Source: Novosphingobium sp. RL4
GTDB lineage: Bacteria; Pseudomonadota; Alphaproteobacteria; Sphingomonadales; Sphingomonadaceae
Direction: 5' to 3'
DNA length: 64,000 nucleotides
Assembly: GCF_035658495.1 (NCBI RefSeq)
Contig: NZ_CP141944.1
Span: forward strand, 2,506,001-2,570,000
Below, piece by piece: positions 46,054-50,327 of this stretch. The notes below the pieces were generated by a model. That model was given only the letters and a program-made list of their open reading frames with translations. It ran no database searches and had not been told where the DNA came from. Position 1 is the stretch's first letter; each line of letters starts with the position of its first letter. The position numbers and the translations under genes are program-made.

Positions 46054-46512
46054 GTGTCGTCCGATACAGCATTCATCCATGAGCCGGCTCCGGGGAACCC
46101 GGGCTGGCTTACCTGGAACCTTGAAGACGACACCCGCTTCAATGCGGTGGGCCTCGGCCCGATGATCATCAGGCGCGAAGGCGAGCGTAGTGCCCGCGTC
46201 CGCCTGATCGATCTCGAAACGCGCCACAGCAACATGCACGGCAACGTGCATGGCGGCGTCACCCTTGCCTTCATCGACGTTGCCATGTTCGCGACGATGT
46301 TCTGCGTCCTGGGCGCCGAAGTCACGGGCTCCGTTACGCTGGACCTCCACAACCAGTTTATCGGTGCCGGCCGCATCGGCGCGCCGCTGGACGTGGTATG
46401 CGAGGTCATGCGCGAAACCGGCCGCCTCGTGTTCCTTCGCGGAACCGCCGAACAGGGTGACAACCTCGTGTCGAGCTTCGTCGGCACCCTGCGCAAGCCG
46501 AGCCAGCGATGA
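46054..46512 (+). CDS. PaaI-like hotdog-fold thioesterase
   Basis: A 152-residue hotdog protein that likely hydrolyses acyl-CoA. The core HSNMHGNVHGGVTLAFIDVAMF matches the PaaI pattern (N-x-x-G-x-x-H-G-G then D near the helix), followed by the strand VTLDLHNQFIGAG. It starts with GTG at 46054, 35 bp after sdhB, and its stop overlaps the zapE start (ATGA), so sdhB, this gene and zapE form an operon. Substrate unknown. Confidence 0.85.
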   Translation: MSSDTAFIHEPAPGNPGWLTWNLEDDTRFNAVGLGPMIIRREGERSARVRLIDLETRHSNMHGNVHGGVTLAFIDVAMFATMFCVLGAEVTGSVTLDLHNQFIGAGRIGAPLDVVCEVMRETGRLVFLRGTAEQGDNLVSSFVGTLRKPSQR

Positions 46513-47624
46513 CCGCGATGCTCGAACGCTACGAAGCTCTTGTAGCCACCGGCGAACTGCGCTCCGACCCCGAGCAGGCGGCCGCGGCGGAACGGCTCAA
46601 CCAGCTTCAGCGCGAAGTCTACAAGGCGCAGACATCCACCGGCTTCCTCGGCAAGCTGCTCGGCAAGAAGGCCCCTCCCCCGCGCGGTCTCTACATGTGG
46701 GGCGGTGTGGGGCGCGGCAAGTCGATGCTGATGGACCTGTTCCACCAAACCCTCGACATCGAGGAAAAGCGCAGAATCCACTTCCATGCCTTCATGCTGG
46801 AAGTCCATGCGCTGCTACGCGAGGAACGCCGCAAGGAAAGCGGCGATCCGATCCCGCCGGTGGCGACCACCATCGCGCGCAACGTCAAGGTCTTGGCCTT
46901 CGACGAAATGGTCGTGAACAATTCCGCCGACGCCATGATCATGAGCCGGCTGTTCACCCATCTCATCCTCGACGAGGGCGTGACGATCGTCACCACGTCG
47001 AACCGCGCGCCCAAGGACCTCTACAAGAACGGCCTCAACCGCGAGCACTTCCTGCCCTTCATTGCGCTGATCGAGAAGGAACTGGACGTTCTGACGCTCA
47101 ATGGCCCGACGGACTACCGCCTGCACCGCCTCGGCGGCATGGCGACCTGGCACTACCCGCTAGGAGAGCCGGCGACCGAGCAGGTTCGAGAGGCATTCTA
47201 CCGCCTGACCGACTATCCTCCAGAGGACAGCGACCACGTTCCGTCGGCCGAGCTCGACGTCGGCGGCGGGCGTATGCTGCACGTACCCAAGAGCCTCAAG
47301 GGCGTTGGCGTGTTCAGCTTCAAGCGCCTGTGCGGCGAAGCGCGCGGCGCGGCGGACTATCTTGCAATCGCACGCGCCTATCACACCGTCATTCTGGTGG
47401 GCATACCCCGGATGGGGCCGGATCGCCGGAACGAGGCCGCGCGCTTCGTGACTCTGATCGATGCGCTTTACGAGAACAAGGTGAAGCTGATCGCGGCGGC
47501 GGATGCCTCGCCTGAGGAACTTTACGAAGCGGGCGATGGCCACTTCGAATTCGAGCGCACGGTAAGCCGTCTCAACGAGATGCAGAGCGCCGATTACCTC
47601 GCCATGGGCCACGGCGAAGACTGA
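46509..47624 (+). CDS. zapE: Cell division protein ZapE (AFG1-like ATPase)
   Basis: A 371-residue AAA+ ATPase with a Walker A GGVGRGKSMLMD and Walker B LAFDEMVVNN, and the family end segment PRMGPDRRNEAARFVTLIDALYENKVKL. ZapE affects Z-ring stability in E. coli; in eukaryotes the homologue AFG1 acts in mitochondrial protein quality control. Start ATGA overlaps the thioesterase stop. The function in this organism is inferred from the family. Confidence 0.92.
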   Translation: MTAMLERYEALVATGELRSDPEQAAAAERLNQLQREVYKAQTSTGFLGKLLGKKAPPPRGLYMWGGVGRGKSMLMDLFHQTLDIEEKRRIHFHAFMLEVHALLREERRKESGDPIPPVATTIARNVKVLAFDEMVVNNSADAMIMSRLFTHLILDEGVTIVTTSNRAPKDLYKNGLNREHFLPFIALIEKELDVLTLNGPTDYRLHRLGGMATWHYPLGEPATEQVREAFYRLTDYPPEDSDHVPSAELDVGGGRMLHVPKSLKGVGVFSFKRLCGEARGAADYLAIARAYHTVILVGIPRMGPDRRNEAARFVTLIDALYENKVKLIAAADASPEELYEAGDGHFEFERTVSRLNEMQSADYLAMGHGED

Positions 47625-47648
47625 AAAGTTAACGATTTGCGAATCAGT

Positions 47649-47688
47649 CGTTAATGGAAATGCGCTTGAGGGCGCGCTTCCGTTAACG
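47649..47688 (+). terminator. Large hairpin downstream of zapE (U-less)
   Basis: CGTTAATGGAAATGCGC, loop TTGAGG, GCGCGCTTCCGTTAACG: 17 positions with one mismatch and two G-U pairs. A second GTTAACG/CGTTAA arm begins at 47628, so an alternative smaller stem sharing CGTTAA is possible. No U-tract. Confidence 0.5.
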
Positions 47689-47744
47689 GATTTGCACGCC
47701 TGCGCTTCAGCACCCAGCCCCAGACCCAGCCCTCGCAAGGCAAT

Positions 47745-47779
47745 AAAAAACGCCCGATTTCCAATAGTGGAAAGGGCGT
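47745..47779 (-). terminator. Rho-independent terminator on the minus strand
   Basis: On the minus strand ACGCCC-TTTCCA, loop CTAT, TGGAAA-TC-GGGCGT followed by a T-run (TTTTTT). It lies about 250 bp past the CHASE2-EAL stop, so it ends either that gene's long 3' UTR or a separate small RNA. Confidence 0.85.
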
Positions 47780-47910
47780 GGCTGGCGGCCGCATCAGTGG
47801 CCTTATCTATCAATTTTTAGCGGATTTCCGCCAATTTTTCTTGAATTCGGAAAGAGTATATGCGGCGTTTCGAAGAAGAGTTCCACGAAACGCCGCATAC
47901 GATTTGGTGA

Positions 47911-47946
47911 TTAGCGGCCGTAGCTGCCCCAGTACCAGCTGTACAT
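47911..47946 (-). CDS. Micro-ORF, 11 codons, Tyr/Trp-rich (leader-peptide-like)
   Basis: ATG TAC AGC TGG TAC TGG GGC AGC TAC GGC CGC TAA gives MYSWYWGSYGR, with three Tyr and two Trp in 11 residues. A GGGG-rich Shine-Dalgarno-like stretch (ATGGGGTAATGAT) precedes it with about 7 nt spacing. A 14-bp hairpin begins about 10 nt after the stop, as in ribosome-controlled attenuators, but no gene follows before the terminator. It could be a regulatory peptide on a small RNA. Whether it is translated is unknown. Confidence 0.35.
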   Translation of the reverse strand: MYSWYWGSYGR

Positions 47947-47990
47947 ATCATTACCCCATGTGAACCGCCGCTATTTTGCGGCTGCCGACA

Positions 47991-48019
47991 TGGATAACAA
48001 CAGGTTAAGAAGTCATCAA
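47991..48019 (-). promoter_or_regulatory. Candidate sigma-70 type promoter for the putative small RNA
   Basis: TTGATG, 17-bp spacer, TATCCA on the minus strand, directly after the CHASE2-EAL stop. The -10 box is a poor match. A GGTTAAGAAGTC/GACTTTTTTAACC stem (48003-48032) overlaps the -35 box and could also be the end of the EAL transcript. Confidence 0.3.
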
Positions 48020-48026
48020 GACTTTT

Positions 48027-50327
48027 TTAACCAGTTCGTCTGGGCTCCCTCCCCACGATTTGCGTGAGCAAATCCCGGAATGGTACGGGCCGGCTGACAT
48101 AGTACCCCTGAATGGCGTCGCACCGCATGGTCCGCAGGATGTCGAGTGCGGCCTGAGTCTCCACACCCTCGGCCACGACGACCCGGTCCTGTGAATGCGC
48201 CATCTCGATGATCGACTGGACGAGCAGGAGGTCTTCCTTGTTTCCTTCCATCGCCTGGATGAACACCTTGTCGATCTTGACCTCGGTGGCAGGCAGATAA
48301 CGCAGGTAGTCGATCGTCGCGTTCCCGGTGCCGAAATCGTCAATCGACAGCTGGACGCCGGACTGCACGAGCTTCTGGAGCATCTGGAACGTGCGCGAGC
48401 TGCGGTCGAGACGATCCGTCTCGGTGATCTCCAGGATCAGCTTGTCCGCAGGCAGGCCGTACGTTTCCAGGATTTCGGCGATCAGGCCGGGCAGGCCGGG
48501 ATTACGAAGCAACTGAGCCGAAATGTTGACCGACATGGTCATGTCGAAACCGTTGCGCCGCAGTTCGACGGCGGAACGCACGGCATCGTCGATGACAAAG
48601 CGCGTGATGCGCTCGATCCGGTGGAACTCCTCGGCGATGCGGATGAACTTGTCCGGACTGATCGGACCGCGCTCCGGGTGAGTCCAGCGCACCAGCGCCT
48701 CGGCCCCGGTCACGCGGTTGCTCGCCACGTCGAGCTTGGGCTGATAGGCCACCCAGACCTCGCCATTGTCGATGGCGCGATCGAGCTGGGTCAGCAGCGA
48801 GATTTCCCACTGCGCCTCATGCTTGCGGCTGTCGAACTTGTAGACCAGTTCGTCGTTTCGCACGGCCTCCTCGGCTGACTGCATCGCACTGGCGACGCGG
48901 CTGGATACCGGGCGATCGAATTCCGAATCGATACCGCAGTTGAACGAGAGATCGATGTCGAGCCCGCCCACCTGGATCCCGTTCTGCACGATCCGGTGGA
49001 GGCCTTCGAGGTTCTCGAACAGATCGAAAGTGCTGCGGATCGTGGAGAGCCACATGAACATCCCGCCCTCGTGGTAAACCACGACTTCGCTGTCGCTGAT
49101 GCGGATGCGACGGACGATCTCGTTCGCGACTTGCGCCTCCACGTGTTCGGCGAAGCTGCCGATGATCGCGCCGTAATTGCGGATCTGAAGCGCCACGAGG
49201 ATCCGGCTCGAAACCGCGTCGTATTTGCGCAGCACCTGCACGCTGGGAAGGCCCGAGCCCGAGTTTGTCTCTCCGGCGACTTCGACACGGTCGAGGTTGC
49301 GCATGCGGAACACGGCTACGGTGGCCATCGCGATGGCCGGGAATACATCCACCTGGACGCGGAAATGATCCAGCATCAGCGGGAACAGGATAAGCACGAC
49401 AACGAGGCCGCTGAAGCGATAGATGTCCAGCACGCGCCCGCGCCCAACACCCGTCACGATGACGACCAGCGCCAGCAGGAACGGGGGAATCCATCCCAGG
49501 ACGAACGGCACCCCGTCCTTCAGGGTCTCTGCCGCGATGGCATGGAAGTAGCCGCCGGGAACATAACCCTGCATCGGCAGCGTATGGACGTCGTGGAACA
49601 CCTCGGCGCTCGGCGCGATGATGATGTCCCTGCCGCGCACCGATTTCGGATCGAAGCGGCCCATCAGCACATCCACATAGCTGGCTGTCGGGATCGTCTT
49701 GTAATCGATCGAATAGTCCGGCTTGTAGACCGAGGACGTGCCTTCCTGCACGTCGGCGATCTTCGCCGAAAGGCTCGGGATGACACCGATCGGACTGTCG
49801 GACGCGAACGGGAAGCTCGTGCTGAGATTGAACGGATGGTCCAGGGCCAGCAGCGAAACCGCGCCGGCATCCTTTCTCAATCCCCGCGAAGGAATGACCG
49901 AGGCGTAATTGCCCATCGCGCCGTCCTTGCTGGGCATCGCGCCCAGGAAAACTCGTCCGCGATATTTGGCGAAAGTCGCAAGAAGTTCGTCGCGGCCGAC
50001 GGTTTTCTCGTGATCGTTCAGGAAGCGGTCGAAGAAGACCCGCTTCGCGCCGGCATCCATCAGATTGCGGATTACCTGGGCATCGTTCGCACGCGAAACG
50101 TCGAGGACCTCGAGTTCCTCAAGCGTCTTTCCGTCCTGCAGGACCATGACGATCTCGCCCTTGGACGGGTGCATGCGAAGCCATGTCCGGCCATTGACCA
50201 GAATGTCCTCCAGAGGGAGGCCTGCGCCGGTAACGCCCAGAAACACGCCGGTCAGCACCGCCCAGAAGACGATCCTGAATCTGGCGCTCTTCCAGACTTT
50301 GGCAGCCCGCGCGCCGAGGTCAGACAT
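48027..50327 (-). CDS. CHASE2 - degenerate GGDEF - EAL cyclic-di-GMP phosphodiesterase
   Basis: A 766-residue signalling protein. An N-terminal membrane segment (IVFWAVLTGVFLGVTGAGL) precedes a CHASE2-like periplasmic sensor to about residue 280, then two or three membrane helices (LLALVVIVTGV, LVVVLILFPLML), a GGDEF-like domain without its active site (YHEGGMFMW at the GGDEF position) and an EAL domain with EALVRWTHP, ITETD, DDFGTG and the terminal KIDKVFI and EGVETQ segments. The EAL motif is intact, so phosphodiesterase activity is plausible. It lies just downstream of the exopolysaccharide operon on the same strand, with a gap of about 240 bp. Confidence 0.88.
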   Translation of the reverse strand: MSDLGARAAKVWKSARFRIVFWAVLTGVFLGVTGAGLPLEDILVNGRTWLRMHPSKGEIVMVLQDGKTLEELEVLDVSRANDAQVIRNLMDAGAKRVFFDRFLNDHEKTVGRDELLATFAKYRGRVFLGAMPSKDGAMGNYASVIPSRGLRKDAGAVSLLALDHPFNLSTSFPFASDSPIGVIPSLSAKIADVQEGTSSVYKPDYSIDYKTIPTASYVDVLMGRFDPKSVRGRDIIIAPSAEVFHDVHTLPMQGYVPGGYFHAIAAETLKDGVPFVLGWIPPFLLALVVIVTGVGRGRVLDIYRFSGLVVVLILFPLMLDHFRVQVDVFPAIAMATVAVFRMRNLDRVEVAGETNSGSGLPSVQVLRKYDAVSSRILVALQIRNYGAIIGSFAEHVEAQVANEIVRRIRISDSEVVVYHEGGMFMWLSTIRSTFDLFENLEGLHRIVQNGIQVGGLDIDLSFNCGIDSEFDRPVSSRVASAMQSAEEAVRNDELVYKFDSRKHEAQWEISLLTQLDRAIDNGEVWVAYQPKLDVASNRVTGAEALVRWTHPERGPISPDKFIRIAEEFHRIERITRFVIDDAVRSAVELRRNGFDMTMSVNISAQLLRNPGLPGLIAEILETYGLPADKLILEITETDRLDRSSRTFQMLQKLVQSGVQLSIDDFGTGNATIDYLRYLPATEVKIDKVFIQAMEGNKEDLLLVQSIIEMAHSQDRVVVAEGVETQAALDILRTMRCDAIQGYYVSRPVPFRDLLTQIVGREPRRTG

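Follow-up and report, generated by a model that had tools for sequence, protein, structure and literature searches.

Behind the gene for a CHASE2-EAL protein of Novosphingobium, we found what appears to be a translated, stand-alone gene for an 11-residue peptide, the product of which probably partners the phosphodiesterase encoded next to it. Judging from sequence comparisons, we assign this reading a probability of roughly 0.6. Within it, we regard the gene as very likely real and coding, and consider the odds about even that the peptide is a partner of the phosphodiesterase. The window, by which we mean the whole stretch of 64,000 nucleotides analyzed, was assigned to Novosphingobium by a scan of named genomes, and strain ST904 represents the same species.

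The CHASE2-EAL gene (48027..50327, minus strand; 766 amino acids, Pfam EAL at 2.3e-69 and CHASE2 at 8.8e-17) was identified by synteny as the constant upstream neighbor of the micro-ORF, and all parts of the element lie behind it on the same strand. The first-pass annotation had described an ordered set of promoter-like boxes, a small stem, a GGGG, a micro-ORF, a 14-bp hairpin, and a terminator, each of which we recovered in its place. The putative promoter, recognized from the window sequence and its conservation, spans 47991..48019, with TTGATG (48019-48014) and TATCCA (47996-47991) separated by 17 nucleotides. On the same grounds, inverted GGTTAA and TTAACC boxes were placed around the -35 (48003..48032), and the EAL stop codon (48029-48027) lies within the GGTTAA box. 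The 5' hairpin with the arms GCCGC/GCGGC (47967..47982; fold and covariation in 14 sequences) is followed by a Shine-Dalgarno (SD)-like GGGG (47954..47957), which sits inside the near-invariant TTCACATGGGG (47964-47954) and is spaced 7 nucleotides from the ATG. The micro-ORF, MYSWYWGSYGR (47911..47946), comprises 11 codons and a stop, running in the window sequence from the ATG at 47946 to the stop at 47913-47911, and the relatives read have an ORF at the corresponding site. Starting 11 nucleotides past the stop, a perfect 14-bp hairpin (47859..47899; window sequence and fold) combines arms at 47899-47886/47872-47859 with a 13-nucleotide loop and a weak U tract. A weak second hairpin separates it from the intrinsic terminator read in the window sequence (47745..47778), a stem with a 2-nucleotide bulge and TTTTTT. 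The 246-nucleotide RNA folds at z = -5.1, and none of 200 shuffles was equally stable. A generic scan listed neither a promoter nor a terminator for the micro-ORF, with no promoter at all in 46500-49500, where 0.8 would be expected by chance.

The element is conserved at the DNA level well beyond a single strain. The block up to the ATG showed a mean column identity of 81% among 14 sequences, and blastn matches, some of them short and chance-like, were found in 17 of 99 genomes of the genus. A DNA pattern of the 5' region (TTAWCCAT...CACATGGG...ATG), which requires nothing of the micro-ORF beyond its ATG, matched 30 of 195 Novosphingobium genomes, so the absence of conservation named by the first-pass annotation as a ground for rejection does not hold; the reversed control pattern had no match among the matches listed. 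In the scan of named genomes, the pattern gave 20 matches, including one in a Microgenomates MAG that resembles a chance hit. The conserved order runs from the promoter-like boxes through the 5' hairpin, TTCACATGGGG, the ATG, and the Trp-rich micro-ORF to the hairpin/terminator. Lack of conserved codons had been named as another ground for rejection, and this too fell away; in all 37 distinct ORF sequences compared, the block leads into an ORF of 9-16 codons without interruption. Compensatory changes anticipated for the 14-bp stem were seen at two pairs, altered on both sides with pairing kept, among eight loci of the window's clade (window included); in the 5' hairpin, two of the five pairs each had one of the 14 sequences changed on both sides. 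The terminator was expected to be conserved as well, and an intrinsic terminator was detected within 250 nucleotides at 38 of the 43 loci from Novosphingobium (shuffles, 16%), as well as in 12 of 14 and 19 of 20 loci of two further sets (shuffles, 10-16% across sets). In the 38 distinct places found with peptide profiles, 35 had a terminator within 140 nucleotides (4% in shuffles). A GTTAACC/GGTTAA-type box, a motif chosen after seeing the loci, occurred upstream of the micro-ORF in 41 of 43, 14 of 14, and 15 of 20 loci of the three sets (5-9% in shuffles). A covariance model of the upstream block (R1), which models the window-type form and scored 11 candidates per genome, matched 3 of 397 family genomes.

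Several individual loci deserve separate mention. In the clade with WGGGWWG peptides, the terminator hairpin around GAAGCGCTTTCCAGAAGAACTCCTGTCTTTTGGAAAGCGC, 3' of the micro-ORF, is near-identical between species with its surroundings diverged, and its loop holds CTCCT (L012, L013, L017, L031, L033, L040, L045, and L110). A Novosphingobium-like copy in a MAG labelled Porphyrobacter (L071, the same as L023; genus g80, contamination 6) is possibly a misassigned contig. In two viral contigs (L021 and L022), the degenerate ORF pattern ATGTAYWSNTGGTAYTGGGG is matched exactly. The window carries TTAA-N7-TTAT, and the CtrA box motif is TTAA-N7-TTAAC; genome counts give no support to a CtrA-regulated reading, TTAA-N7-TTAACC occurring twice in the genome versus three times for the reversed control.

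The conserved unit is tied to one enzyme gene. An EAL protein at E<=1e-150 was found in 54 of the 195 Novosphingobium genomes, and these 54 include all 30 genomes with the DNA pattern. Of these 30 genomes, 29 have an EAL match that extends to the element, the exception being ST904 (L070; G057:C56). In this strain, the micro-ORF is identical to that of the window and the EAL match is in pieces (residues 1-376, plus 331-592 at lower identity), which suggests a frameshift or an assembly error. From the 24 EAL genomes outside the DNA pattern, we fetched 20 (leaving out G519, G543, G544, and G570), and by eye a Trp-containing, SD-led micro-ORF lay behind the EAL gene in all 20, the shortest forms being MFWGWQNF and MWKIFNPWS. 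At E<=1e-130, 34 of 298 family genomes had the EAL protein; besides the window and G384 there were 32, of which 20 were fetched (19 of other genera, and G351 of Novosphingobium), and five of the 12 left unfetched surfaced in the profile searches. A Trp micro-ORF was again seen by eye behind the EAL gene at all 20 of these more distant loci, where the peptides are often longer and are mutually alike (MAKRTKQPVRGFWDWLLGGGWSN, MRKVNRPARGFWDWLFGDGNAGGRN, and MSIWKFWNDVFGGR). Under a fixed rule (an ATG, an SD-like sequence, a length of 7-41 codons, one Trp or more, and a position within 320 nucleotides), the micro-ORF was recovered at 18 of the 20 genus loci and 19 of the 20 distant loci, versus means of 2.1 (maximum 6) and 1.6 (maximum 5) in 200 shuffles. 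Among the upstream proteins scanned, EAL was present in 20 of 20, and the CHASE2 cut-off was passed by 11 of 20.

The linkage was also approached from the zapE/AFG1-like ATPase gene (46509..47624, plus strand), the convergent downstream neighbor in Novosphingobium; the ZapE match is absent from the other-genus loci L166-L195. A close EAL ortholog is absent from 141 Novosphingobium genomes, and we inspected the zapE locus in the 20 that came first in the list. A diverged EAL gene stood beside zapE in 14 of them, and a Trp micro-ORF of 7-17 codons (e.g., MWKWLFF and MRRWDFWSWALK) followed it in 14 of 14. The other six had no EAL gene there, and no micro-ORF was accepted in any of them. A looser rule (GTG allowed, 1.5 kb) yielded Trp ORFs at four of these six loci, which we did not accept since each lies within the long frame of another gene and no GTTAACC box was found near zapE at any of the six. 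At all six, a long frame extends to within 64 nucleotides of the zapE stop, and this scarcity of intergenic room indicates the joint absence of the whole EAL-plus-micro-ORF unit rather than of the micro-ORF alone. A search of the genome that contains the window recovered 14 EAL genes at E<=1e-20, and only the one described here is followed by a Trp micro-ORF or the box; one other is followed by a Trp-less SD-led ORF. We define EAL-linked Trp micropeptides of Sphingomonadaceae as SD-led ORFs of 7-41 codons behind a CHASE2-EAL-type gene with the box upstream and a terminator downstream, and the window locus belongs to them. Linkage to the EAL gene does not by itself prove interaction.

The substitution patterns argue for translation. 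In 11 ORF pairs, hand-picked by equal length and similarity and thus a biased selection, we counted 21 synonymous changes in 107.7 sites versus 17 nonsynonymous changes in 399.3 (Fisher, 1.7e-6), an N/S ratio of about 0.22. The peptide profiles found 46 loci, which include eight places fetched twice and therefore amount to 38 distinct places. Their 37 distinct cores differed pairwise by 0.324, 0.176, and 0.451 on average at the first, second, and third codon positions, and none of 2000 column shuffles reached their codon score, a test biased by the selection of these cores for translated similarity. Less selected column-shuffle tests were weaker: 208 of 2000 shuffles reached the score for the window's clade, and 74 and 19 of 2000 did so for two further clades of Novosphingobium. 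With 16 cores found by synteny, some of them misaligned, the figure was 359 of 5000.

The window peptide would be a shortened local form of a larger peptide family. The short ORFs behind the ATG of the DNA pattern have 11-16 codons (e.g., MYSWNWGSLGR, MTKGLYSWYWGGLGGR, MNKDIWGGGWWGGGL, MRKDFWGGHWGTAGV, and MKKWPWGGWYF), and the distant members, often longer, share the consensus RGFWDWLFGGG. Overall, the peptides range from 7 to 41 residues and diverge fast; they are aromatic, and the longer ones are often basic at the N-terminus, so that the fuller form appears to consist of a basic N-terminus plus RGFWDWLFGGG. Trp was present in 42 of 43, 14 of 14, and 20 of 20 members of the three sets, the last two having been accepted partly for having Trp, unlike the DNA-pattern members; the sole exception among the 43 Novosphingobium members is MLGNIGGRPKGG (L029 and L067; N. 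colocasiae). Profile A3 (14 peptides), searched against 149 family genomes, gave 16 matches at E<=1e-3, six of them seeds, and each lay behind an EAL gene; for its weaker matches (E 0.001-0.14), 14 loci were fetched, five lying behind an EAL gene and nine elsewhere. With profile A4 (24 peptides) and 246 genomes of the order, 23 of 24 matches at E<=1e-3 were behind an EAL gene, 10 of them seeds; with the seeds removed, this held for 13 of 14, the exception lying inside a 462-aa open frame. All 39 order genomes matching A4 at E<=0.05 belong to the same family, a count that comes without the share of the sample lying outside the family, and 240 genomes of the class gave three matches at E<=0.01 (best 0.0011). 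In the sampled genomes, the family looks confined to Sphingomonadaceae. The window ORF (G000) was not matched by A4, and the FWDWLFG core is not recognizable in it; its place in the family rests on its position and on intermediate forms.

The first-pass annotation had recognized no known family, and database searches agree. Pfam and NCBIfam returned no family for five members at E<=10. PHROGs gave only weak matches for four members (best E 0.063); two fuller members weakly matched phrog_29326, a phage family of 36 positions with unknown function (E 0.063 and 0.087). At its gathering threshold, Rfam (release 15) found in the whole window only a tRNA elsewhere, and by E-value its one match at the locus was at 0.24, scoring 19.6 bits where the cut-off is 100. 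The plasmid search gave no match, and the single PDB match was at chance level. In the parts of the open-licence literature covered, nothing relevant was found on Sphingomonadaceae micropeptides, small RNAs, or CHASE2-EAL genes, or on the CtrA binding motif in Novosphingobium.

Other accounts of the locus have to be weighed against a peptide gene. The functional product could be an RNA: a small RNA linked to the 3' UTR would base-pair with its targets through the hairpin loops, and the ORF would be secondary or part of a dual function. The hairpins conserved with compensatory pairs and the near-identical CTCCT-containing terminator loop kept by one Novosphingobium clade are in keeping with such an RNA. 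However, the ORF persists while loops and terminators differ in sequence between clades, their presence being largely kept, and in the cores found by profile, variation is greatest at third codon positions. The conserved product therefore looks like a peptide rather than an RNA, and we consider the latter unlikely. A chance micro-ORF in a conserved promoter region is hardly credible: very short ORFs are common, but the fixed rule recovered nearly all loci against about 2 of 20 in shuffles, and the recurrence of Trp points the same way, most directly in the DNA-pattern finds, where Trp played no part in acceptance. If the peptide itself were a membrane-active toxin of the type I toxin-antitoxin style placed beside the EAL gene, the short, cationic, Trp-rich sequences of several members (e.g., MRRWDFWSWALK and MKKWPWGGWYF) would be accounted for, yet others are near-neutral and Gly-rich or end in Asp/Glu, and linkage to one enzyme gene is, to our knowledge, unusual for such pairs; we give a toxin little weight. 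Another candidate is a cis element, with the 3' end and the stability of the EAL mRNA set by translation of the micro-ORF. In its favor, the generic scan of the window listed no terminator in the gap from the EAL stop to the micro-ORF, and termination comes after the ORF. Conservation of the residues F-W-D-W-L-F-G would not be needed for an effect in cis, and this account likewise seems improbable to us.

The first-pass annotation had suggested a free-standing RNA or peptide derived from a leader. A free-standing unit with a real micro-ORF is borne out, as far as conservation can tell, and a leader or attenuator origin is not. Trp codons followed by a hairpin and a U tract do recall an orphan tryptophan attenuator (trpL-like), and adjacent Trp codons occur in 16 of 37 distinct Novosphingobium ORFs; the window has none in succession (W-x-W). 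A trp leader precedes a trp biosynthesis gene under its control; in the window, no structural gene lies behind the micro-ORF, and zapE is convergent. At the 38 other places, the downstream genes fall into many unrelated groups (a count given as 42 distinct holds four of the places twice); the longest-frame rule placed three on the same strand and 21 on the opposite strand, with 14 undecided. The constant neighbor is the EAL gene upstream. With no fixed gene downstream, and with residues other than Trp conserved too, a leader function is disfavored, and we rate it as very improbable. Downstream synteny is genus-specific: in genus g78 (L168, L177, L220-L225, L228, L232, L236, L238, and L240), the same gene family, which we take to resemble pntA-type transhydrogenase, follows the micro-ORF, mostly convergently.

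Small proteins modulating a membrane enzyme or sensor, some encoded beside their partner, are exemplified by MgrB-PhoQ, CydX, and AcrZ, which have roughly 30-50 residues with a transmembrane helix. The Sphingomonadaceae peptides would resemble them as tiny proteins beside a larger partner that they may modulate, and differ in having 7-41 residues and no transmembrane helix obvious to the eye. In the literature as far as it was covered, the closest analogue found is peTrpL of rhizobia. The peTrpL/rnTrpL system of Sinorhizobium meliloti and other rhizobia comprises a Trp peptide of 14-19 residues from a short attenuated transcript; the peptide, of 14 residues in one case, acts in trans and has little conserved besides its Trp residues (PMC7298713). 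As in that system, a short Trp peptide appears to be encoded here. The rhizobial peTrpL lies ahead of trpE(G) and originates from the attenuator of that gene, and its RNA is leaderless (PMC7298713). Our micro-ORF, in contrast, leads no gene, has the constant EAL gene upstream, and carries an SD-like GGGG and a 5' hairpin. Ribo-seq of S. meliloti reports unannotated translated sORFs below the smallest annotated protein of 30 aa; these are, like ours, alphaproteobacterial, though of a different order, and the portion consulted mentions no connection with an EAL gene (PMC10117765).

As a working model for the stand-alone micropeptide gene, we propose that a short mRNA of about 130-240 nucleotides would start just behind the CHASE2-EAL gene and end at the hairpin or the terminator; the micro-ORF may additionally be transcribed by read-through from the EAL gene. 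The ATG behind GGGG would be translated into the 11-residue Trp/Tyr/Gly peptide. The CHASE2-EAL product probably breaks down c-di-GMP and is presumably membrane-bound, as CHASE2 proteins are. The aromatic peptide would lie at the inner membrane surface or in a hydrophobic groove and may modulate the adjacent phosphodiesterase; an action at the membrane is suggested by the aromatic character of the peptides and the often basic N-termini of the longer ones, and such modulation would explain why gene and peptide are retained or lost as a pair. More broadly, one c-di-GMP phosphodiesterase of the Sphingomonadaceae may have obligate partners in dedicated micropeptides as short as 7-11 residues; we hold this tentatively, at somewhat less than even odds.

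How each of many c-di-GMP enzymes is controlled is a long-standing question, and here one phosphodiesterase gene has its own micro-gene across a bacterial family. Looking beside conserved genes can uncover coding genes of 7-16 codons that are missed by sequence search, as was the window ORF by the profile of its own family. If the proposal is true, a signaling enzyme would have its own tiny regulator, encoded by micropeptide genes too short for usual annotation and among the smallest conserved protein genes of bacteria. The finding suggests that a family of very small proteins associated with a c-di-GMP phosphodiesterase has been overlooked.
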